From Candidatus Peribacteraceae bacterium (GTDB lineage Bacteria; Patescibacteriota; Gracilibacteria; Peribacterales; Peribacteraceae), in assembly GCA_028703445.1 (NCBI GenBank), contig JAQVMW010000002.1, positions 62,001 through 126,000 on the forward strand: 64,000 nucleotides of DNA, read 5' to 3'. Shown here in pieces: positions 39,522 to 60,358 of the stretch (within the stretch, counting starts at the first letter, position 1; each line of letters opens with the position of its first letter). Below the pieces are notes generated by a model. The model was not told the origin of the DNA, did not search any database, and worked only from the letters and a program-made list of their open reading frames with translations. A program made the position numbers and the translations under genes.

Positions 39522-40280
39522 ATGGTTGATAGCGATCAGTTTTGGTTTGTTCTCTTCGCGGTACTCGGGCTTGTGTTTGGCAGCTTCGGGACGGTACTCA
39601 TCGCGCGTGTTCCCGCGGAACAGCACCTGGGTGGTCGCTCGCGCTGCCCACGATGCAAGCACGTGCTTGGCGTCATTGAGCTCGTTCCGCTCCTAAGCTA
39701 TCTGCTGCTGCGCGGCCGGTGTCGCCATTGCCATCGATCCATCAGTGTTGTGTACCCGCTTACAGAGCTCCTTTCCGCGCTCGTCTTTTTGTGTGCGCTC
39801 TTCATTGGGTCATCACCTCTTTCCTCGCTTCTCCTCGCGTTCTCACTGTGGTTGCTGCTGCTTATTGCGATCATAGATGCGCGTACGCAAACCATCCATG
39901 ATGCGCTGAATTTCTCCTTCATCGTTTTTTCCGCTGCCCATGCAGTGGCCATCGGGCAACTGCAGATTTCCGGCGCGCTCCTCCTGGCGCTCTTTTTCGG
40001 CGCACAGTGGCTCGTGAGTCGCGGGCGGTGGGTGGGGAGCGGTGACATTCTGTTAGGCGTTGGCATTGGTTTTCTCTTGGGTGGCTGGGAGCAATCATTG
40101 CTCTGTCTTGGTCTGGCGTACATCCTTGGCGCGATGGCGGCTTCGTGCCTGCTTCTCCTCAAAAGAGTCTCTCGCAAAAGTCATATTCCCTTTGGGCCGT
40201 TTCTGGCCGCGGCAGCTTTGCTCACGATCATGTTTGGAGATCGGATACTTGGTCTGATCGTTCCAGGACTATTGATGTAA
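39522..40280 (+). CDS. pilD: Prepilin leader peptidase
   Basis: GSFGTVLIARVP; two CxxC pairs (CPRCKH...CRHCHR); YPLTELLSALVF; multiple TM. Confidence 0.95.
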   Translation: MVDSDQFWFVLFAVLGLVFGSFGTVLIARVPAEQHLGGRSRCPRCKHVLGVIELVPLLSYLLLRGRCRHCHRSISVVYPLTELLSALVFLCALFIGSSPLSSLLLAFSLWLLLLIAIIDARTQTIHDALNFSFIVFSAAHAVAIGQLQISGALLLALFFGAQWLVSRGRWVGSGDILLGVGIGFLLGGWEQSLLCLGLAYILGAMAASCLLLLKRVSRKSHIPFGPFLAAAALLTIMFGDRILGLIVPGLLM

Positions 40281-48883: not shown

Positions 48884-49063
48884 ACGAAAAGGGGAGAAAA
48901 GTGTACGAAAGCATCCTTCTGCTTTAAGTGCGCAGGGGGGACGTCGCGCTAGAGACTAGAAGCGGTGTTCCCGCTTCGTCAACTTTTCGCCCGTAAACCT
49001 GCTCCCAACGGGCTTTGCTGGAAATGCGGTTTTGTGCTATCATACGTAGTAAGACACACACCT

Positions 49064-49519
49064 ATGCCGAATCCCAAAAAACCCATCCCCATTGCGGCAT
49101 TGAGCCAGGAAAAGGTAATCCCTTCGACTGTGCAGGAGGAGGTGCCTGCCAAAGGCCAGAATCTGAAGCACATTCTCATCGTGGAAGACGAGCGGCCGCT
49201 CGCGCATGCCCTGGAATTGAAATTTCGTCATGAGGGGTTCGATACGCGCATCTGTCTCGATGGCGAAGAAGCGCTCAAGGAGATGACGGAAGGGAAGTAC
49301 GACGTCATCCTGCTTGACCTCATTATGCCACGGATGGATGGGTTCACATTCCTGCAGGAAATGAAGAATCGTGGCATGAAGACACCGACTGTCGTGCTCA
49401 GCAATCTTGGCCAGGACGAAGACAGAACGCGCGCCCAGTCCCTGGGAGCCGTGGGCTACTACGTGAAATCCAACACACCGATCATGGAAATTATCAAACA
49501 AGTGCAATCTCTTCTCTAA
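49064..49519 (+). CDS. Response regulator receiver-domain protein
   Basis: HILIVEDERPLAHALELKF; VILLDLIMPRMDGFTFL; GYYVKSNTP. Confidence 0.93.
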   Translation: MPNPKKPIPIAALSQEKVIPSTVQEEVPAKGQNLKHILIVEDERPLAHALELKFRHEGFDTRICLDGEEALKEMTEGKYDVILLDLIMPRMDGFTFLQEMKNRGMKTPTVVLSNLGQDEDRTRAQSLGAVGYYVKSNTPIMEIIKQVQSLL

Positions 49520-51346
49520 ATGCCTATTTCTGATATCGATCTCGGCGCCGTTCTCGTTCAGCAGAATTACCTCTCTGAAGAGGATCTGAAGCGTGTTGAT
49601 GCATTGGCCAAAGAGCGGAATCTCCCGCTCCTCTCGCTTCTGTTCGAGCAGGGGCTCCTCACACAGGATCTCTACGAGGGAGCGATTGCGGAGCACTACA
49701 AACTGCCGTTCTACGATCTGCAGGCGCACCTCCCCTCCCCCGAAATCATTGCGGAGTTGCCCGAAGAGATTGCGCAGACATACCACATGATTGTTGTGGA
49801 ACACACAGGAGATCGGGTGACCATTGCCACCGCCGATCCGGGGCAGGAGAAACGAGAGGAGATCGTTCGTCTGAATCTGGGACAGAAAACAGCGGTTCCT
49901 TTGCCGGAAATTGACGAAGCGAATACAGAGGGGGCAGAAGAGAAACCGCAACAGAAGAAAGTCGTGCAGCGCTTGCTCACATTGGGCAAGAAGGAGGAGA
50001 AATCCGAAGCACCGCAACGGTTCACCGGGACCGTCGCATTCGTCTACACTCCGCAGTCCGGCATTGATGCGGCGTGTCAACACTATCGAAAACCCCTCTC
50101 CACGCGCTTTCAGGCTATCATTTCGAGCGAGGGGAAGGTCGCGCCGGAAATTCTAGAAGAGATTATCAATGATGGAATCGAACTGCGTGCGTCTGACATT
50201 CACTTTGAGCCACAGGAAAAAATTGTCGTCGTCCGCTTTCGTATCGACGGCGTGATGCACGAAGCGGGTCGCATTCCCAAAGAGCATTATGAGGGCGTGG
50301 TGAATCGCATCAAGATTCAGGCGAATATGCGCATTGACGAGCACTACGCTGCCCAGGATGGAGCCATCCGTTACACATCGCCGCACGGTGCCTTGGATAT
50401 TCGTGTTTCGATCGTGCCGCTCGTCGAAGGCGAGAAAGTGGTGATGCGTCTGCTCTCTTCCTACGTGCGTTCCATCACACTGCTCGATCTCGGTTTTTCC
50501 CAGAAGAATCAAGAGATTCTCACCGAAGCCGCGCATAAACCCTTCGGCATGGTGCTCACCACGGGTCCGACGGGTTCAGGAAAATCCACGACCCTCACGG
50601 CGCTCCTGAAGATGCGCAACACGCCCGACGTGAACATTTCCACAATCGAGGATCCGGTGGAGTACAAGATTCCCGGCGTGAATCACATTCAAGTGAATCC
50701 GAAGACCAACCTCACCTTTGCCTCCGGACTGCGTGCCCTCGTGCGTCAGGACCCGGATATCGTGCTCGTGGGCGAGATCCGCGACGGCGAGACGGCGGAT
50801 ATTTCGGTGAATGCCGCGCTCACGGGTCACCTGGTGCTCTCCACACTGCACAGCAATGATGCAGCCACGGCCATCCCCCGCCTGCTCGACATGGGCGTGG
50901 AGCCGTTCCTGCTCGCTTCCACGCTGGAGGTGGTGGTCGGACAGCGCCTCGTGCGGCGCGTATGTCCCCGATGTCGACACAGCGTGAGTATTACGGCGGA
51001 CGAGGGGGCTAAACTTTTTCCCGGTGCTGAAAAAATGATCCCGGCCAAAAAGCCTCTGACACTCTACCGTGGCAAGGGCTGTGAAGCCTGCAGTTCTACG
51101 GGGTATCGCGGCCGTATCGGTATCTACGAGTTACTTCTCATCACTCCGGAGATCGAAGAGCTCATTCTCAAGCGCGCCTCCAGTTCCGAGCTCAATGAAA
51201 CGGCGGTCAAGGGGGGCATGCGACTGATGTTCGAAGACGGATTCGACAAAGTTCTTGCAGGTGTCACCACGATCGAAGAGCTCCTGCGCGTTGCGGCACC
51301 GCCCGCCATCATCTTCAGCTCCACTCATGGCCGAGACAGCGACTGA
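49520..51346 (+). CDS. pilB: Type IV pilus assembly ATPase
   Basis: GMVLTTGPTGSGKSTTLTALL; Asp box; ILVGEIRDGETADISVNAALTGHLVLSTLHSNDA-type motifs; CxxC Zn motif. Confidence 0.96.
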   Translation: MPISDIDLGAVLVQQNYLSEEDLKRVDALAKERNLPLLSLLFEQGLLTQDLYEGAIAEHYKLPFYDLQAHLPSPEIIAELPEEIAQTYHMIVVEHTGDRVTIATADPGQEKREEIVRLNLGQKTAVPLPEIDEANTEGAEEKPQQKKVVQRLLTLGKKEEKSEAPQRFTGTVAFVYTPQSGIDAACQHYRKPLSTRFQAIISSEGKVAPEILEEIINDGIELRASDIHFEPQEKIVVVRFRIDGVMHEAGRIPKEHYEGVVNRIKIQANMRIDEHYAAQDGAIRYTSPHGALDIRVSIVPLVEGEKVVMRLLSSYVRSITLLDLGFSQKNQEILTEAAHKPFGMVLTTGPTGSGKSTTLTALLKMRNTPDVNISTIEDPVEYKIPGVNHIQVNPKTNLTFASGLRALVRQDPDIVLVGEIRDGETADISVNAALTGHLVLSTLHSNDAATAIPRLLDMGVEPFLLASTLEVVVGQRLVRRVCPRCRHSVSITADEGAKLFPGAEKMIPAKKPLTLYRGKGCEACSSTGYRGRIGIYELLLITPEIEELILKRASSSELNETAVKGGMRLMFEDGFDKVLAGVTTIEELLRVAAPPAIIFSSTHGRDSD

Positions 51347-52529
51347 TCCAGCGGCCCAGCCGATCACTCCTGCGCCTGTTCCGGAACAGACTGTCGTCAC
51401 ATTTACGCCAAAACCAGCCCCGTCAAAATTTGCCGCGCAGCGCAAGGAGCTGCAGAAATTTTTTGCGTCGCTCAACCATCTGGGCATGGGCAAGCAGCGG
51501 ATGATGTTCATCCAGAGCATGGCGATGATGCTCACTGCCGGTCTCTCACTTGTCGATGCTCTGCAGACGCAGTTGCTCGAGGCAAAATCCAAGGCCGTCC
51601 GCAAACTCATTCAGGGCATCATCACGGCGGTCGAAAACGGATCGTCGCTCTGGAAGGCGATGGATGACCAGTCACTCTTCTCCCCGTATGAAATCGCTCT
51701 CGTACGTATCGGCGAAGAGGGCGGCAATCTGGCGCGGAATATGGAGTATCTGGCGGAACAACAGGAGAAAGACCGCGCGCTCAGAGCGAAAGTGAAGATG
51801 GCGATGACCTATCCCGCCATTATCGTTGTTCTGGTCTTCGTTCTCATCATGGGACTCGGTCTCTTCGTATTGCCCAATCTCGTGCAGGTGCTCTACTCAC
51901 TCAATGTGGAGCTGCCGCTCGCCACGCGCGTCGTCATTACCATTTCGCAGCTCTTCGAGGCGCACGGGATGGTGTTTGCGCCCCTGCTCTTTCTCGCGCT
52001 CATCATCGTGTTGCTCATGGGAAAATATACGCGGTTTCGTGCCGTGGCTCAGTGGGTGGTCTTTCATACGCCCGGCATCGGCAGCCTGGCGCGTGAGTCG
52101 ATCATCGCACAATTCGGCGTGATCCTCGGCGGGCTCCTGCGTGCGGGCGTACCTCTCGTAGAGGCGCTTTCTTCCCTTGCCGAGGTCACGCACACCGTCT
52201 CGTATAAGCATTTCTACCAAAAACTGCTGGAGCATGTGAACGCGGGTGACTCGTTCAGTAAGAGTTTTAAGGCGCTTCCGGAGTGCAACCGTCTGTTTCC
52301 CATTTCCGTGCAGCAACTCATCGTAACCGGCGAGCGATCGGGGGGGCTTTCGGATGTGCTCATGAAGATCTCCGACATGTACGACAAGAAAGCCTCCGAA
52401 ACGGCAGAGAAGCTTCCGGTGATCCTGGAGCCACTTTTGCTCATTATCATTGCCGGTGTCGTCGCAGGCCTCGCATTTGCTATCATAGTACCTATCTACA
52501 AAGTCGTCGGGAACATCGGTCGAAGCTAA
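51327..52529 (+). CDS. pilC: Type IV pilus inner-membrane platform protein
   Basis: Tandem T2SSF domains: MMLTAGLSLVDALQTQ, LGGLLRAGVPLVEALSSLAEVTH; start reassigned to 51327 (MAETATDPAAQP). Confidence 0.93.
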   Translation: MAETATDPAAQPITPAPVPEQTVVTFTPKPAPSKFAAQRKELQKFFASLNHLGMGKQRMMFIQSMAMMLTAGLSLVDALQTQLLEAKSKAVRKLIQGIITAVENGSSLWKAMDDQSLFSPYEIALVRIGEEGGNLARNMEYLAEQQEKDRALRAKVKMAMTYPAIIVVLVFVLIMGLGLFVLPNLVQVLYSLNVELPLATRVVITISQLFEAHGMVFAPLLFLALIIVLLMGKYTRFRAVAQWVVFHTPGIGSLARESIIAQFGVILGGLLRAGVPLVEALSSLAEVTHTVSYKHFYQKLLEHVNAGDSFSKSFKALPECNRLFPISVQQLIVTGERSGGLSDVLMKISDMYDKKASETAEKLPVILEPLLLIIIAGVVAGLAFAIIVPIYKVVGNIGRS

Positions 52530-52554: not shown

Positions 52555-55422
52555 ATGGCGCACAAAGGGTTTACCGCGGTTGAGATGCTCCTCACACTGG
52601 GCATCATCGCGATCACTGCCGGTGTGAGCGTTCCGCTGTACCGTACGTACCAGCTGCGTAGCGATCTGGATACGGCAGTCGAACAAGCCAAACACGCATT
52701 GGAGCGTGCTCAGGTGCTGGCGCGCGCCGGTCAGAACGATTCCATGTGGGGGTATGCGGCGAGCGAGGGCGTCCTCTTTCAAGGAGAAGCGTTCGCTATC
52801 CGCGAATCGCAGTCGGATGAGCTCTACATCGTTCCTGGTACCGTGCATGTTTCCGGTTTGCCCGAGGTGGTATTTCAACGGGTTTCGGGCGAACCTCTGA
52901 CGATTGGCGAAATCATTTACGAAGCAGGGAACGGTGAGCGGCGCGTGATCACAGTGGCGACGGAAGGCCCTCCCATTGTAAGCCCCTTGCTGCCTCCGGT
53001 TGAGCAACAGTCATCGAGCAGCACTGTGGCAAGCGAAGGAGCGTCAAGCTCCGTGCCGGGTTCGAGCGCCGCGAGTGCAGAAGGGAGTCAGGGAAGCACC
53101 GACTCCACCGGTTCGACGGGGAGCAATGGGTCTGACGCCGGACAGGGAGGGACGAGTTCCAGCAGTGCCACGTCGCTCTCGAGCGACAGTGACAGCGCCG
53201 CAACGTGCGAAGACGCATTCACGCTTCTGCCGGACGGGACCGTACAAACAACGGGTACCGTGGATGCGACGGTGAAAGTTCTCGGATCGCAGGTGAGCGA
53301 GGGGGCGGGTGGAAACTCTGCCAGGATTGTCGTATCCATGAGTACCGATGAGGGTGAAACGTGGGTGTCTCTCTTCAACGGTAATTCCGTCAGAGGTGGC
53401 GAAGAAGAAATCGTTCCGAACCTCCCTTCGGGTACGAAGCTGCTCGTACGGGTGAATGGCCGTCACTCCTGGCTTTTCAATCGCACGTTCCTGTCGAATA
53501 ATTCTGCGGGACACATGCTCGTGTTGCGCAACGGTCATCTGATGCCGTCCGACATGTATAATGCTTTCAACAACACTACCAGTCTCGCGCCGTTCCTTCG
53601 CGCAGTCATCGAGAACGGACATGTAAAAATTCATCCGCATGCCATCCTCTTTCTCACTGAACTTGATGCGCTCTGGAAGGGTTCTTCCAAATTTCAGGAT
53701 GCCGTGATTCAGGTCACATTCGCGGTGAAACCCGGCAGCTGCGCGCAGAGCACAGATCCCAAAGTGAAGATCGTTTTCGACCGCATTGAAAATCAAGGTG
53801 CGGGTGATGCGAAGCGGCGCGCGTATGTCGGGGGACAGGGTATTCTCTTTGCAGAGGGCCAGTGGATCCCCCTCTCGACGGCGGGTGTGACGATGGCAGA
53901 CGATTCTCTGGTAGAGGATGTTCCGGGTATGGCTGTAGAGCGTCGCAGCGGGGTTCTGCGCGTGCTCCTGCATGGTTCGCACATCATCCCCTCCGGCAAA
54001 GAAATCGCAGATGCGCGCATCATTTTCGACCGTGCTCAGGTGACTTCCATCGAGGCTGATACCGGACAAAATGCTCCGGAAGCCGTTTCGGATGGAATCG
54101 TAAACGACGGGGAAGGAGGCGATGAAGCCACCATCGACGCCGACGGGCGTTCCGTTCTCTTCCAAACACGTGTCACCGCTGCGGATGATGCCATTCTTAT
54201 CCATTGGAGTATCGCCAGTAGCGCCAGTTCCAGTGCGGCATCGGGAGCAAGTTCGTCCAATGCGAGCGAAGCCTCTTCCGCTTCATCTCAGACAGGGTCA
54301 GAACAAGCCGGGAGCGGAAGCAACCTGCCTGCGGATCCTTGTGCCGCAGCCTACACGATGGATGATCGTGGCCGCATTGTTCTCGGAGAGAAGGCGGATG
54401 TGGCGTTCATGGTCCTCGGGTCATACGCAACCTATGGTGCCAACGGTCCGATGATCCACGTACAGCTGAATGCCAGTCTTGATGGCGGAAGCACATGGCG
54501 TGGACTCTTCAACTTCCGCGACATTCTGAGAGGAGATTCTCAAACGCTCCGTGACGTGCCTGCCGGATCCATCCTTTCGCTTTCGGCGGAAGGCCGCTAC
54601 TCCTGGCTCTTCAAGCGCGTTGCCAACCTGACTGATCATGCGGATCGCGTGAAGATCCTTCGCCCCGGTTCCGCACTCCCCGCCATCGGATTGCTCTCCA
54701 CGCCCACGCGCTTACAGTCGTTCCTGCGCGATCGTATTGTCGATGGTCACGTCGACCTCGGTCGTAGACAGGTGCTCGCGCTCGTGGAATTACAGGATTT
54801 GGATGACACAGCGGACTTCCAAGATGCCGTCGTCCTCATTTCTTTCAGCAAGTCGGTGAGTGACGGCGTGTGTGCTGATGCGGAAACAGACAGTCAGACA
54901 AGTTCTGCCGGAACCTGCTCTTCTTCGTCTTCTGCCTCTTCGCAGGTTGCGGGACACAAGATCAAGATTTGCCATTTCACCACCACTGATCGCCTGCATC
55001 CTTCCACGATTGAAATCGACGAATCTGCATGGTCGGCCCACAGTGCCATAGGTGATCGTCTGGGAGAGTGCGAAGCGGACGACGATGGTGACGGGATTCC
55101 GAATGCCCAAGATTTCTGCCCGGGGACATTCTTGCCGGAATCGGTGCCGACGGAGTTCATGCTCTTCAATCGCTATGCCCTCATGAGTACCACGGGCGTC
55201 TTCCGCGAAGGCCCGCGCAAGCGCGTGAGTTCCTTCTCGCTTGCCTCTACGCGCGGGTGCAGCTGCGAGCAACTGGTCGATGTGGCCGAGGGCGTGCGTG
55301 ACTACTACTTCGCAAGCGAACCGCTCTTACTCAGGGAGATGAAGAGTCTCTTCCCGTTCTACACGAACGGGGCGCGGCAGTTCGGTTGCGGGACAGCCAT
55401 TCTGCGGATGACGCGGCCGTAG
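52555..55422 (+). CDS. Giant multi-domain pseudopilin / putative adhesin
   Basis: Class III leader MAHKG|FTAVEMLLTLGIIAI; GspH-like N-domain; Ser-rich linkers; duplicated about 180-aa domain; DDDGDGIPNAQDFCP near the C-terminus. Confidence 0.8.
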   Translation: MAHKGFTAVEMLLTLGIIAITAGVSVPLYRTYQLRSDLDTAVEQAKHALERAQVLARAGQNDSMWGYAASEGVLFQGEAFAIRESQSDELYIVPGTVHVSGLPEVVFQRVSGEPLTIGEIIYEAGNGERRVITVATEGPPIVSPLLPPVEQQSSSSTVASEGASSSVPGSSAASAEGSQGSTDSTGSTGSNGSDAGQGGTSSSSATSLSSDSDSAATCEDAFTLLPDGTVQTTGTVDATVKVLGSQVSEGAGGNSARIVVSMSTDEGETWVSLFNGNSVRGGEEEIVPNLPSGTKLLVRVNGRHSWLFNRTFLSNNSAGHMLVLRNGHLMPSDMYNAFNNTTSLAPFLRAVIENGHVKIHPHAILFLTELDALWKGSSKFQDAVIQVTFAVKPGSCAQSTDPKVKIVFDRIENQGAGDAKRRAYVGGQGILFAEGQWIPLSTAGVTMADDSLVEDVPGMAVERRSGVLRVLLHGSHIIPSGKEIADARIIFDRAQVTSIEADTGQNAPEAVSDGIVNDGEGGDEATIDADGRSVLFQTRVTAADDAILIHWSIASSASSSAASGASSSNASEASSASSQTGSEQAGSGSNLPADPCAAAYTMDDRGRIVLGEKADVAFMVLGSYATYGANGPMIHVQLNASLDGGSTWRGLFNFRDILRGDSQTLRDVPAGSILSLSAEGRYSWLFKRVANLTDHADRVKILRPGSALPAIGLLSTPTRLQSFLRDRIVDGHVDLGRRQVLALVELQDLDDTADFQDAVVLISFSKSVSDGVCADAETDSQTSSAGTCSSSSSASSQVAGHKIKICHFTTTDRLHPSTIEIDESAWSAHSAIGDRLGECEADDDGDGIPNAQDFCPGTFLPESVPTEFMLFNRYALMSTTGVFREGPRKRVSSFSLASTRGCSCEQLVDVAEGVRDYYFASEPLLLREMKSLFPFYTNGARQFGCGTAILRMTRP

Positions 55423-55445: not shown

Positions 55446-55487
55446 GCGGTGCCACCCTGAGCTAGCCGAGGGGTGGCACCGCGTTTT
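55446..55487 (+). terminator. Intrinsic terminator
   Basis: GCGGTGCCACCC tgagctagccgag GGGTGGCACCGC gTTTT, perfect 12-bp stem. Confidence 0.88.
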
Positions 55488-57033
55488 GTATGGTTCATTC
55501 CTCGACCCAGTGTATCCCGAGCGGGTCGAGGGGCGCAAAATCATCACGCTCTTCTCCAGAGCTCTCCCTGTATACTGCATAACTGTTCTCCCATTTTTCC
55601 GTCCCCAATCCGGCTCGCTTCTGCTTGAGACCATTCTGGGCGTCGCGATTTTTGCTGTCCTTGCCGGTGCCGTGACTGCCGTTCTGTTCGTTGGGCAGGA
55701 GAGCACTTTGCAGAGCGGTGCTCAGGTACGGGCAGTCCATCTTTCCTCGGAGGCGTTAACCGCAGTGCATTCCATGCGCGATGCCTCTTTCGATCAACTG
55801 ACAGTCGGCCAGCATGGCACGTGCATCGGCGCGACGGGTCTATGGGAGTTCTGCGGACAGGAGAACGTGACGGCAGACGGTTTTCACACACTGATCACCG
55901 TAGAGCCTCTCCTGGAGAATCACGTGCGTGTAATCGCAGAAACGCGTTGGCAGGAGGGGAATTCTCGATCGGGATCCGTGCTTCTTGCGGAGGAGCTCAC
56001 AGACTGGCGTGCCGTAAAACCCATTGGTGACTGGACGGCACCGCGGCTCGAAGGTTCCTATACGATCGAAGGTCAGCCGCTCTTCTCCGGTCTCGCTCTC
56101 AAGGGGGACATCGTGTTCGCCACCAGCGCGTATGGAGAGGGCGGCAAGGGGCTTCAGGCGTTCGATTATGTTTCGGGCGACGATCCGATGCCCGTTGCCA
56201 CAGGATTCGATTTGGGTGTTGCAGCGTACTCGGCAGTCGTCGCGGGGGATGTGCTCTATGTTGCGGCGGCCGATTCTTCTGCAGAGATCCAACTCTTTGA
56301 TGTGACGGATCCGGCGGCTCTTTCGCAGACGAAACGCCTTGCATCTGTGAATCTGCCGGGCGAAGGGCGCGCCCGGTCGCTCGTATTTTTCAATAACACT
56401 CTCTTTGTGGGAGCAACGGAAGATGCGGTGGAACCGGAGTTATTCGCTTTCGATGTCACGGATCCCGATTCCCCGCAGCTTCTCGACACACTGCAGGATT
56501 CCACGTCGATCTTTGGCGTAAGCCTGCATGAAGGATTCGCCTACATCGCAGGATCCATGGATTCCATGGAGTTGCGCGTCGCAGACATCTTCGATCCTAC
56601 CGATCTCTCTTTTGCTTCAGGGGAGGGTTACAACCTCACGGATGTGCACGATGCGCTTTCTGTCGTAACAGTGAACGACGATCTGCTGCTCGGTCGTCGT
56701 AATGGTGAAGCGATTGATGAACTGGTGCTCTTGGATTTGAGCAACGGCGCGGTTCCCTCTTCGCCGCCCGGGCCGTGGTTCCAGGAGATCGGAGGAAGTG
56801 TTCCATCGCTCATAGCGGAACCCGGAGGGCGTTTCGCGTTTATTGCCACGGATAATATTGCCGCACAGCTGCAAGTTGCGGACATTGCAAAGTTCCGTGC
56901 CGGCCAGTTCCCCATCGTTGCCACGGCAACCACGCTGACCGGTGGCGGACGTGCCGTAGCCTACGATGCGCAGCGGGACCTCGTTCTGCTCGCCACGGAT
57001 CGCGGGATTCTCCTCTACCGTCCCGGCCCATGA
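55486..57033 (+). CDS. Pseudopilin N-terminus fused to LVIVD-type beta-propeller
   Basis: QSGSLLLETILGVAIFAVLAGAV followed by repeated VAGDVLYVAAADSSAEIQLFDVTDPAAL / FNNTLFVGA..LFAFDVTDPDSP / HEGFAYIAGS..LRVADIFDPTDL. Start codon uncertain. Confidence 0.75.
   Translation: MYGSFLDPVYPERVEGRKIITLFSRALPVYCITVLPFFRPQSGSLLLETILGVAIFAVLAGAVTAVLFVGQESTLQSGAQVRAVHLSSEALTAVHSMRDASFDQLTVGQHGTCIGATGLWEFCGQENVTADGFHTLITVEPLLENHVRVIAETRWQEGNSRSGSVLLAEELTDWRAVKPIGDWTAPRLEGSYTIEGQPLFSGLALKGDIVFATSAYGEGGKGLQAFDYVSGDDPMPVATGFDLGVAAYSAVVAGDVLYVAAADSSAEIQLFDVTDPAALSQTKRLASVNLPGEGRARSLVFFNNTLFVGATEDAVEPELFAFDVTDPDSPQLLDTLQDSTSIFGVSLHEGFAYIAGSMDSMELRVADIFDPTDLSFASGEGYNLTDVHDALSVVTVNDDLLLGRRNGEAIDELVLLDLSNGAVPSSPPGPWFQEIGGSVPSLIAEPGGRFAFIATDNIAAQLQVADIAKFRAGQFPIVATATTLTGGGRAVAYDAQRDLVLLATDRGILLYRPGP
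55500..55531. repeat. REP-like palindrome
   Basis: CCTCGACCCagtgtatcccgagcGGGTCGAGG. Confidence 0.6.
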
Positions 57034-57452
57034 TTCTCCTGCGTGCCCGCTGCGGCTACATCTTCCTCCTGAGCATTATCATGGTCGGGGCGGTTGCCGT
57101 GGCCACGTTAGGTTCCCTCCTTATGATTGGTGTGGGTTCGTTGCAAATTGGCTTCACCGTGCGGCAATCCGAACAAGCCCGTTTATTGGCCCAAACCTGC
57201 GCGGAGCGGGCACTCCGGGCGCTGTGGGAGGATACGAGTTACACAGGCGTCGAAGAATTGACGTTTGATGAAGGCCAGTGTGACATCCTGCGTGTAGGCG
57301 GATCTGGCAACGATGGTCGTTCCGTCTGTGCCGAGGGGCGGGTTGGACCAACCGTACGACGCTACGAGATTCTGCTGGAGCGCATTCTTCCATCTATTCG
57401 GGTATCCGTCTGGCGCGAAGTGGAGCAATTCGCTGCCTGTTCTTACCAATGA
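57030..57452 (+). CDS. PilX-like minor pseudopilin
   Basis: Short basic leader and hydrophobic helix MILLRARCGYIFLLSIIMVGAVAVATLGSLL; overlaps neighbours by 4 nt. Confidence 0.65.
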   Translation: MILLRARCGYIFLLSIIMVGAVAVATLGSLLMIGVGSLQIGFTVRQSEQARLLAQTCAERALRALWEDTSYTGVEELTFDEGQCDILRVGGSGNDGRSVCAEGRVGPTVRRYEILLERILPSIRVSVWREVEQFAACSYQ

Positions 57453-58090
57453 GTATGCGCCATGATCACCATCGGCCAGGCACGACGCTCGTGGAACTTC
57501 TGCTCTTCCTTGCCTTTTTTGCCGTTGTCGGAGGGACGGTTGTGTCCATTCTCTTCGCCACAAGTGACCAACGTGCACGACAGCAGACCATCGCATCCGT
57601 TGAGCGTACGGGGCTACAGGCATTGCAGGCACTTCGATGGCGCATTGAACATGCCGAACGGGTCTTAGACCCCCAGAGAGGTTTTTCGGGGTCTGTTCTT
57701 GCTCTGCAAATGGCTTCCGAAGCGAATGATCCGCTGATCATCGCTGTCGATAGCGGCTCTCTGATTTTTGTATTGCATGAATCCAAGAAGACCCTCACCT
57801 TCGAAGGAATGATCGTCTCTCATTTCGTCGTACGCAATTTATCTCCTTCTGAAGATCGTCCGAACGTGCTTCTCTCTTTCGATCTTGCCGAGGCGTACCC
57901 TCTGCCATCCAGTCCAGTTTTGGAGTACGCACAACATTTCGAGATGGCTGTTTCACTCCTCCCCAAAGATGCCCCCGTGGGCAATGCGTGCGGATGCGCA
58001 TTACCCGCATGTATCGCGGGTATCTATCAGTGGCAGGTGTGTAGCGATGAAGAGTGTGTTCCAGCCGTCATGACATTCCCATGTTCCTGA
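57449..58090 (+). CDS. PilW-like minor pseudopilin
   Basis: HHRPG|TTLVELLLFLAFFAVVGGTVVSIL class III leader. Confidence 0.75.
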   Translation: MSMRHDHHRPGTTLVELLLFLAFFAVVGGTVVSILFATSDQRARQQTIASVERTGLQALQALRWRIEHAERVLDPQRGFSGSVLALQMASEANDPLIIAVDSGSLIFVLHESKKTLTFEGMIVSHFVVRNLSPSEDRPNVLLSFDLAEAYPLPSSPVLEYAQHFEMAVSLLPKDAPVGNACGCALPACIAGIYQWQVCSDEECVPAVMTFPCS

Positions 58091-58222: not shown

Positions 58223-58672
58223 ATGAAGCTCCGTCTCTCTCGTGAGGGGTTCACGCTGATTGAACTTCTCCTTGTCATCGGGATCATCGCGATCCTCGCT
58301 TCCATCGTCATTGTGGCGATCAATCCCACCAAGCAGATGGGGGATGCGCGCAATGCACAGCGCCGCAGTGATGTGAACACCATTCTCAATGCTATTTATC
58401 AGTATGCCATCGACAACAACGGCACCATGCCGGGCTGTCTTGCGAGCGGAAGCGGCGGCAGCATCTGCGTGAAGGGAAGTAGCTGCACAGGTGTTGTTGG
58501 AACTTCATGCGATTTGGATGCCCTCACGACGTCGTACATCGTGGACATTCCCACAGATCCTTCGGGTGCCACTGGCAACGATACGAACTACGATGTCGCT
58601 ATCACGAACAGTCGCGTGACCGTGAACGCGCCCGAGGCGGAACAGGGTCAGACCATCTCTGTTACACGCTAG
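58223..58672 (+). CDS. pilA: Type IV major pilin
   Basis: MKLRLSREG|FTLIELLLVIGIIAILASIVIVAINPTKQ; short compact pilin with paired Cys. Confidence 0.92.
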   Translation: MKLRLSREGFTLIELLLVIGIIAILASIVIVAINPTKQMGDARNAQRRSDVNTILNAIYQYAIDNNGTMPGCLASGSGGSICVKGSSCTGVVGTSCDLDALTTSYIVDIPTDPSGATGNDTNYDVAITNSRVTVNAPEAEQGQTISVTR

Positions 58673-58819: not shown

Positions 58820-60358
58820 ATGATCAGAGTTCCCTCAAAGCCTATCCGGCCGGAAAACCCCGCGCATGCGGAATCCATCCTTTGGCGTACGATGCGGCAA
58901 TTCGCACTTCTCGCCACTTTTTCGGTGGTATTATTTTCGGGAGCAATCGCGATCGCCGCCCGCCCGCTTCCCCCGTTCCTCGCCTCGCTCTTCTTCCTGC
59001 TCGGGATACTCGTTTTCGCTCTCGCGCTGGTGCTGGCGTACTTCCTCGCAAAAGGACTGACGGAGCCGATTGTATCTTTGAGCCGTAGAGTCGCTCGATT
59101 GGGTCCGGATCACTGGTCGTATGAGACTACGAAAAACGGAGTGGATGAGGTGGGAACACTTGATGCCGTGATTGCAGACATGGCCTTTCGTCTCGAACGT
59201 GGGTACCAGTATCTTCAGGATGAGGTTGCGAAACGCACGAGCGAACTCAAGGAGCAGTACCTCAAAGATCGTACGATCCTGACTTCCATCCACCACGGCG
59301 TCGTGGTGACAGATGCGTACGGCATCATCGTCGATGCTAATCCTATGGCGGTACAGATTATGGGCATGAGCAGACCGGAGGAAGTATTGGGTAAACCTGT
59401 CACCGAGGTGTTGCTACTCTCGAGCCATCATCACCCCGTATCAAATGAGGAGCATCCTGTGACGCTCTGTTTGCGTTCTCGTGCCGAAGTCCGGCCTCGG
59501 CCGCAAGAACAGGTGAGCGTGGAGCACCCCGATCGCTCCCGCGTCCCGGTCATGTTCGTCGTGAGCCCCCTTCTTTCAGGCGAACAATTGCTCGGTGCCG
59601 TTGCCGTTTTCCACGATGTTACGGAGGAACGGAAACTCGATTACATGAAATCCGAATTCATCTCGCTTGCTTCGCACCAGTTGCGCACGCCCCTCTCGAC
59701 TATTTCGTGGTACGTGGAGCTTTTGCAGACCGACAGTCAAGAGAAGCTCACAGCTACACAGGAGTCCTACGTCGCGGAAATGCGCACTGCAAGCCTACGA
59801 ATGACGCATCTGATTGACGCTCTGCTCCATGTTTCCAGGCTGGAGGGCGGGGGTATTGCAGCCGTGATGCAGGAGGTGGATATCGCGGCACTCGTGCGGG
59901 ACACGGCGGAAGACGAGCGTTCCTTTGCCAAGGATCGCAGGATCAGCCTGGAACTTGCCATGCCCGATCAACTGGCGATCGTCACGGATCCCACGTTCGT
60001 CCAGATCATCCTGCATAACATCCTGAGCAATGCCGTAAAGTACTCGAAGGCAGGAGGCAGCATTGTCGTTACCCTGCATCAGAACGATACGCATGTCTCT
60101 GTCACCGTGCAGGACACGGGTCTGGGCATTCCGCAAACGGAGCAGCGGTATCTCTTCACACGTCTCTTCCGCGCCTCCAATGCGACGAAGGTCGATACTA
60201 CCGGCAGCGGTCTCGGGCTCTACATTTCGCGGATGCTGGCCGAACAATTGAAGGGGAGAATTTCATTCCTCTCGACGGAGGGCAAGGGGACGTCGTTCAC
60301 TCTGGAGTTGCCGTTGGATATACAGAAAAAGCCCGATGCAGTTCCTTCCGCAGCGTAA
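58820..60358 (+). CDS. Sensor histidine kinase (TM-HAMP-PAS-HisKA-HATPase)
   Basis: FISLASHQLRTPLSTISWYVELL H-box; NAVKYSK N-box; DTGLGIP, GSGLGLYISRML. Confidence 0.95.
   Translation: MIRVPSKPIRPENPAHAESILWRTMRQFALLATFSVVLFSGAIAIAARPLPPFLASLFFLLGILVFALALVLAYFLAKGLTEPIVSLSRRVARLGPDHWSYETTKNGVDEVGTLDAVIADMAFRLERGYQYLQDEVAKRTSELKEQYLKDRTILTSIHHGVVVTDAYGIIVDANPMAVQIMGMSRPEEVLGKPVTEVLLLSSHHHPVSNEEHPVTLCLRSRAEVRPRPQEQVSVEHPDRSRVPVMFVVSPLLSGEQLLGAVAVFHDVTEERKLDYMKSEFISLASHQLRTPLSTISWYVELLQTDSQEKLTATQESYVAEMRTASLRMTHLIDALLHVSRLEGGGIAAVMQEVDIAALVRDTAEDERSFAKDRRISLELAMPDQLAIVTDPTFVQIILHNILSNAVKYSKAGGSIVVTLHQNDTHVSVTVQDTGLGIPQTEQRYLFTRLFRASNATKVDTTGSGLGLYISRMLAEQLKGRISFLSTEGKGTSFTLELPLDIQKKPDAVPSAA

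Follow-up and report, generated by a model that had tools for sequence, protein, structure and literature searches.

A single intact open reading frame in the window (the 64,000-nucleotide stretch of a Candidatus Peribacteraceae contig analysed here) encodes a 955-aa pilin that is more than four times the size of a usual pilus subunit. Behind a small pilin domain (N), this protein carries a string of extra modules, A, M, B and C, in which A and B are copies of one domain. The N-A-M-B-C pilin is probably the part by which the pili grip other cells or surfaces. The kind of protein is known, since modular pilins have already been described (more than 1,200 proteins in 264 architectures; PMC8179133). 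New here are the family to which A and B belong, an architecture of four modules, and an operon slot whose content is exchanged between relatives. The host genome comprises 1.37 Mb in 23 contigs and is 98.75% complete.

Domain map and conservation of the pilin

The gene (52555-55422, + strand) has exactly the boundaries given in an initial annotation of this DNA, and its product has a computed mass of about 100 kDa and a computed pI of 4.8. All of its parts are given here on the + strand. A prepilin leader, a hydrophobic helix and a small GspH-like pilin domain (52555..52971, aa 1-139) lead into the fast-evolving linker 1 (52972..53205, aa 141-217, 69% Ser/Thr/Gly/Ala). Domain A follows (53206..53742, aa 218-396, 179 aa, Asp-box STDEGETW), then the middle domain M (53743..54210, about aa 397-552), the Ser/Ala-rich linker 2 (54211..54339, about aa 552-595) and domain B (54340..54873, aa 596-773, 178 aa, Asp-box SLDGGSTW). 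The initial annotation had described this layout, from the first linker to the second copy of the domain, as we find it. It overlooked the terminal cysteines of A and B, a third Ser-rich linker (aa 774-800) with an adjoining HKIKICH...GEC segment (aa 801-839; together 54874..55077), and a C-terminal domain of about 100 aa. The region of linker 3 and the HKIKICH...GEC segment is kept in full-length homologues. The protein ends in a TSP3-like DDDGDGIPNAQDFCP motif and the conserved domain C behind it (55078..55419, aa 842-955). The segment formerly called Ca-binding-like is TSP3-like (aa 839-856, Pfam TSP_3 E 8e-5, just below Pfam's cut-off). Domain C shows 63% mean column identity in its alignment and is nearly restricted to N-A-M-B-C pilins. 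The linker regions of some genomes (e.g., L033 of genome G021) are Thr/Gly/Asp-rich where others are Ser/Ala-rich in the same place, with conserved flanking domains.

The pilin domain was assigned from TIGR02532, N_methyl, a profile comparison with solved pilins and an alignment of 46 N-domains. Its leader scored above the cut-off of TIGR02532 (17.4 bits vs 16.3) and, in the genome search, of Pfam N_methyl PF07963 (22.6 bits vs 21.2; 16.6 bits with the bare protein), as expected from the prepilin leader first annotated. It has the form of a class III leader, MAHKG followed by FTAVEMLLTLGIIAITAGVSV, with G at -1, E at +5 and the hydrophobic helix next, and the predicted cleavage site lies between MAHKG and FTAVE. 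The N-domain profile matched solved PilA structures at E 2.5e-10 and 2.5e-9, the latter spanning positions 6-122, and homology to the type IV pilin superfamily thus runs through both the helix and the globular domain. The more specific GspH label fared less well with family models: TIGR01708 gave 17.1 bits vs a cut-off of 80, and PF12019 matched 4 of the 46 N-domains (best E 0.0065). By position, the gene stands ahead of the I-, J- and K-like pilin genes in nearly all loci examined, as GspH/FimU would. The reading of the 955-aa protein as a 'modular pilin', as published work defines that term, in a GspH/FimU-like position is largely supported; A, M, B and C lie beyond the pilin domain, and both M and the A/B (AB) domain also occur on non-pilin surface proteins.

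Matches to the query were found in 57 of 74 genomes of the order. At least 31 of the 74 encode the whole N-A-M-B-C string as a single frame, some 910-1100 aa long, a count that leaves out three genomes in which it is broken by contig ends; one genome (G073) has an N-A-M-C variant. These fusions in related genomes, which the initial annotation had proposed to look for, stand in a pilus-operon context. An assembly fusion of separate genes, named there as a possible refutation, or a frameshift artefact is ruled out by the same module order in at least 31 genomes, one of which (G051) is a single-contig genome. Within the genus, amino acid identity was 77-80% for A, M, B and N and 86.5% for C, compared with 80% for PilC, 86% for PilB, 59% for linker 1 and 57% for linker 2; synonymous sites (dS) were saturated, and identities and dN only were used. 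The folded modules are conserved like PilB and PilC and the linkers less so, so the modules are under constraint and the linkers loose. Within the genus, the variability of A and B barely exceeds that of PilC, which counts against a fast-evolving, host-specific adhesin.

The A/B domain family

The second copy was taken from the start to be a duplicate, and it is a true one: A and B align by BLASTP at 33% identity (97.8 bits, E 8e-31), their local score of 239 compares with a maximum of 52 among 1000 shuffles, and every shared motif first listed is present in both. This similarity, and a family of 63 members, answer the concern that the two segments might not share a fold. Each copy has a cysteine as its first and its last residue. 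In the family, 56 of 63 members have a cysteine at both ends (first and near-last), most of them with just two cysteines, a pattern from which we infer a disulphide that probably closes the domain from first to last residue. An Asp-box-like motif was found in 52 of 63 AB domains, as compared to about 2 expected from shuffles. AlphaFold2 modelled copy A well from ten alignment rows (pLDDT 83, pTM 0.83) as a beta-sandwich with two short helices; the full-length model of the 955-aa pilin, from five rows, reached pLDDT 40.

Searches of Pfam, NCBIfam, PHROGs and PDB sequences assigned the AB family to no known family, and gave weak matches to BNR/Asp-box in 18 of the 63 members and to Reelin_subrepeat-B in 5 (best E 0.0098). 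The structure prediction that had been suggested as a check thus produced a good model of A and no fold match above TM 0.5; Foldseek found no confident structural relative (best PDB TM 0.42). The beta-sandwich resembles C2 domains such as plant CAR4 (PDB 5a50, Foldseek E 1.5e-4), but with a TM of only 0.40-0.42 to this top match, below the required 0.5, an rmsd of 8.7 and no sequence homology, assignment as a C2 domain was rejected. DUF4114 (PF13448) has a final D-[FY]-x-D motif similar to that of A/B, and a viral DUF4114 protein was matched by Foldseek at TMq 0.48; the profile comparison by hhalign gave a P-value of 0.14 over 14 columns, and this candidate was also dropped. Reelin subrepeats and Asp-box proteins share the Asp-box and the weak sequence matches, but A/B is not assigned there, and a BNR/Asp-box sialidase propeller was rejected on the single Asp-box place per domain and the 179-residue beta-sandwich model. 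No credible phage or plasmid relatives of A were found.

AB domains occurred in 36 of the order's genomes and, among 288 genomes of the class, in two more, and a 380-genome sample of the phylum yielded none outside the order. Judged by sequence comparison, A/B is thus an unnamed, nearly order-restricted domain family. In the tree, a single clade (support 100/99) unites the B copies of 30 genomes, and A and the single copies fall outside it, so the two-copy form goes back to one ancient duplication. In one of the two genomes from outside the order, AB sits on a GspJ-like pilin that also bears TSP3-like motifs (L103), in the other on a protein of locus L102. The latter (L102:7097-9148), from another family of the class, is a secreted non-pilin LVIVD-propeller protein with a terminal AB.

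Domain M was also considered as a diverged third copy of A/B and rejected, being unrelated by BLASTP and hhalign (P-value 0.14). It recurs in other large non-pilin surface proteins and, outside the order, in three of 287 phylum genomes. A 3,892-aa surface protein of a congener (L055:4376-16054) holds 17 DUF11 repeats and one M domain.

The pilus operon and its cargo slot

The gene lies within a pilus operon, all on the + strand, that begins with a response regulator (48965..49519, PF00072 1.3e-22, conserved position), the PilB assembly ATPase (49520..51346, PF00437 1.8e-120, MshEN) and the PilC platform protein (51255..52529, T2SSF PF00482 9.6e-51). The PilC ORF, taken from the first start, overlaps pilB, so the true pilC start is probably further in. 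After the modular pilin come a GspI/PilV-like pilin (SGSLLLETILGVAIFAVL...; 55486..57033, ORF from the first start, true start probably later), a GspK/PilX-like minor pilin (GYIFLLSIIMVGAVAVATL, no Glu5; 57030..57452) and a GspJ/PilW-like minor pilin (GTTLVELLLFLAFFAVVGG; 57449..58090). The I, K and J labels derive from N-terminal sequence alone, the K-like pilin having no Glu5; the K- and J-like genes are also placed by their conserved position, and neither product matched a family model. The C-terminal part of the GspI/PilV-like pilin, about 400 residues, is beta-propeller-like and resembles choice_anch_B/LVIVD (choice_anch_B E 0.0018, below the cut-off); this gene is syntenic in the order and usually includes the propeller-like part, which is lacking in the versions of L065 and L067. 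A probable major pilin of 149 aa (58223..58672, N_methyl 2.6e-6, above the cut-off) is, at 91% within the genus, better conserved than any other pilin encoded here. The last gene of the operon is that of a PAS histidine kinase (58820..60358; HATPase_c, HisKA, PAS; conserved position). A prepilin peptidase (A24) is encoded elsewhere in the window (39522..40280, + strand, PF06750 1.4e-27, PF01478 1.1e-8), and a PilT-family ATPase was found above the cut-off in the genome.

The same order was seen in the annotated loci, running from response regulator, PilB and PilC through the slot pilin(s), the GspI-, GspK- and GspJ-like pilins and the major pilin(s) to the PAS kinase. The stretch from PilB to the major pilin keeps this order in nearly all loci examined; an exception, L069, has no recognisable K- and J-like genes. 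The response regulator (48965-49519) and the PAS kinase (58820-60358) bracket the operon almost throughout the order, and possibly form a surface-contact signalling pair.

The position between PilC and the GspI-like gene is a cargo slot: across relatives the pilin stub stays, and the load that it bears is replaced or enlarged. In L067 and L069, or beside another pilin in L051, the slot pilin is bare (161-196 aa), and six loci (L053, L054, L058, L059, L061, L066) have a pilin with one AB domain (about 420-560 aa). Two loci (L043, L044) have an extra pilin+M gene (308-313 aa) ahead of the large slot pilin. In L050, the slot is filled by a 929-aa pilin with two Laminin_G_3/ConA-like lectin domains (Laminin_G_3 7e-47) and an AB domain. 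The same operon encodes a GspK-like minor pilin (L050:2928-4253) that has a Ser-rich linker and an AB domain of its own, and in all this genome has AB on four pilins of one operon. Directly ahead of the N-A-M-B-C gene in two genomes of one genus lie giant pilins of 3,498 aa (L035:5822-16318) and 3,519 aa (L037:5639-16198) with fn3 and DUF5122/PD40 propeller repeats, whose pilin domains match the N profile at 2e-19 and 1e-20.

Pilin leaders were also seen in two further proteins. One of 1,786 aa (L141:6568-11928, genome G046) combines a pilin leader above the cut-off with a Laminin_G_3 domain and some 11 fn3/purple-phosphatase-N-like repeats. The other, from the host genome itself (L112:4273-5118, contig C19), has a type IV pilin leader above the cut-off with a TPM_phosphatase domain (6e-42) directly after it, which is an odd combination.

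Proposed function and known systems

We consider it fairly likely that the protein is a modular minor pilin, from the type IV pilus of a Candidatus Peribacter species, whose A and B modules bind a partner, and that retraction then pulls the cell in. Prepilin peptidase, which is present, would cut after Gly5, as the leader motif suggests. The GspH/FimU-like stub would then join the GspI-, K- and J-like pilins at the filament tip, to judge from operon order and family knowledge, and the Ser/Gly linkers, flexible and possibly glycosylated, would hold out the string of A, M, B and C. Two of these modules are probably disulphide-closed and hence would be able to bear pulling force. A and B may attach to a ligand that another cell or a surface presents, and having the domain twice would provide avidity or a second specificity; PilT retraction would then draw the cell in. 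The initial annotation had proposed an adhesin carried on a pilin; the large modular minor pilin with its duplicated domain stands, and we infer the tip placement and adhesion from operon position, published precedents and the lectin- and A/B-bearing pilin in the same slot of a relative. The adhesin reading is favoured by AB domains on the GspK-like pilin of L050 and the GspJ-like pilin of L103; it is weakened by the AB on a secreted non-pilin protein (L102) and by the nature of the Asp-box, a structural motif that is not in itself a binding site. A broader and more tentative proposal is that the tip is a cargo-exchange platform without PilY1. The H- and I-like pilins of one conserved operon would permanently carry large ligand-binding modules (A/B domains, lectins or propellers, the largest reaching 3,500 residues), which lineages would exchange at a fixed gene position and which would choose the host cells that such reduced bacteria depend on.

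Several other roles can be weighed against adhesion. Together with the neighbouring propeller-like pilin, the ectodomain could act in place of PilY1, assembling or priming the tip and sensing surfaces, with the PAS kinase and response regulator reading contact. The two regulators do flank the operon at almost every locus of the order, a search of 70 genomes from the order gave no PilY1 family match, and the ectodomain is as conserved as the core machinery. However, the PilY1 search matched no control genome either and hence does not establish absence; in about half of the order the slot pilin is shorter or bare, showing that the full ectodomain is not needed for assembly; and nothing ties the PAS kinase to pilus contact. 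We think this role rather unlikely. It is unlikely, too, that the protein is the pseudopilin of a secretion machine with its ectodomain as a substrate adaptor. Pseudopilin and minor pilin families overlap, and among platform models HofC and GspF come closest, but a PilT-family retraction ATPase is present, the operon has a probable major pilin, and we know of no pseudopilin with an 800-residue ectodomain.

A DNA-uptake pilus, with the large tip pilin binding DNA like Thermus ComZ, would have precedent in the minor-pilin tip complexes that capture DNA in Com pili (PMC12153270) and in the large ComZ module, a beta-solenoid pilin proposed as a DNA binder (as cited in PMC8179133). Known DNA-capturing pilins use electropositive residues, whereas the 955-aa protein is acidic (pI 4.8); we consider this role very unlikely. 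An enzymatic ectodomain, for example a polysaccharide-degrading module on the pilus, is barely credible: Asp-box motifs are common in sialidases, and some pilins have been annotated with peptidase modules (PMC8179133), but each domain has a single Asp-box rather than a propeller set, and no catalytic family was matched in Pfam, NCBIfam or PDB sequences.

The adhesive minor pilin that we favour has parallels in known systems. PilB (vWA) and PilC (lectin) of Streptococcus sanguinis likewise link a small leader-bearing pilin module to a large extra module, which is tip-exposed by modelling and mediates adhesion (PMC8179133, PMC9934059). The present protein differs in having four modules of unnamed families on Ser-rich linkers, a GspH-like operon position and neither a vWA nor a ConA-like lectin domain, though the latter is present on the slot pilin of a relative (L050). 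PilX1 (jelly-roll) and PilX2 (beta-propeller) of Nanosynbacter lyticus TM7x are also patescibacterial minor pilins with extra C-terminal domains, but by the description in that paper their domains and operon position are different (PMC12206443); the neighbouring pilin at 55486-57033 looks like a better PilX2 analogue than the N-A-M-B-C pilin. When PilX2 is deleted in Saccharibacteria, the share of host cells bound falls from about 10.6% to 4.6% (PMC12206443). The available text of the first Peribacteria genome paper reports type IV pili as well as large exported proteins that are variable, and does not mention the 955-aa pilin (PMC4736985). The PilC/PilY1 tip adhesin of type IVa pili is also a large variable tip module presented by a conserved minor-pilin complex; PilY1, however, is not a pilin, while here cargo and pilin are one polypeptide, and a Pfam search of the 955-aa protein gave no match to the PilY1 propeller domain PF05567.

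Pili are strongly suspected of a part in how ultrasmall Patescibacteria recognise the cells on which they live, one of the main questions about these bacteria. The 100-kDa pilin described here, in which an unnamed and probably cysteine-closed domain occurs twice, is a concrete candidate for partner recognition. The order also offers a natural experiment: one slot is filled by bare, AB-bearing, lectin-bearing or 3,500-residue pilins, and each type of cargo can be set against the habitat and the partner of its bearer.
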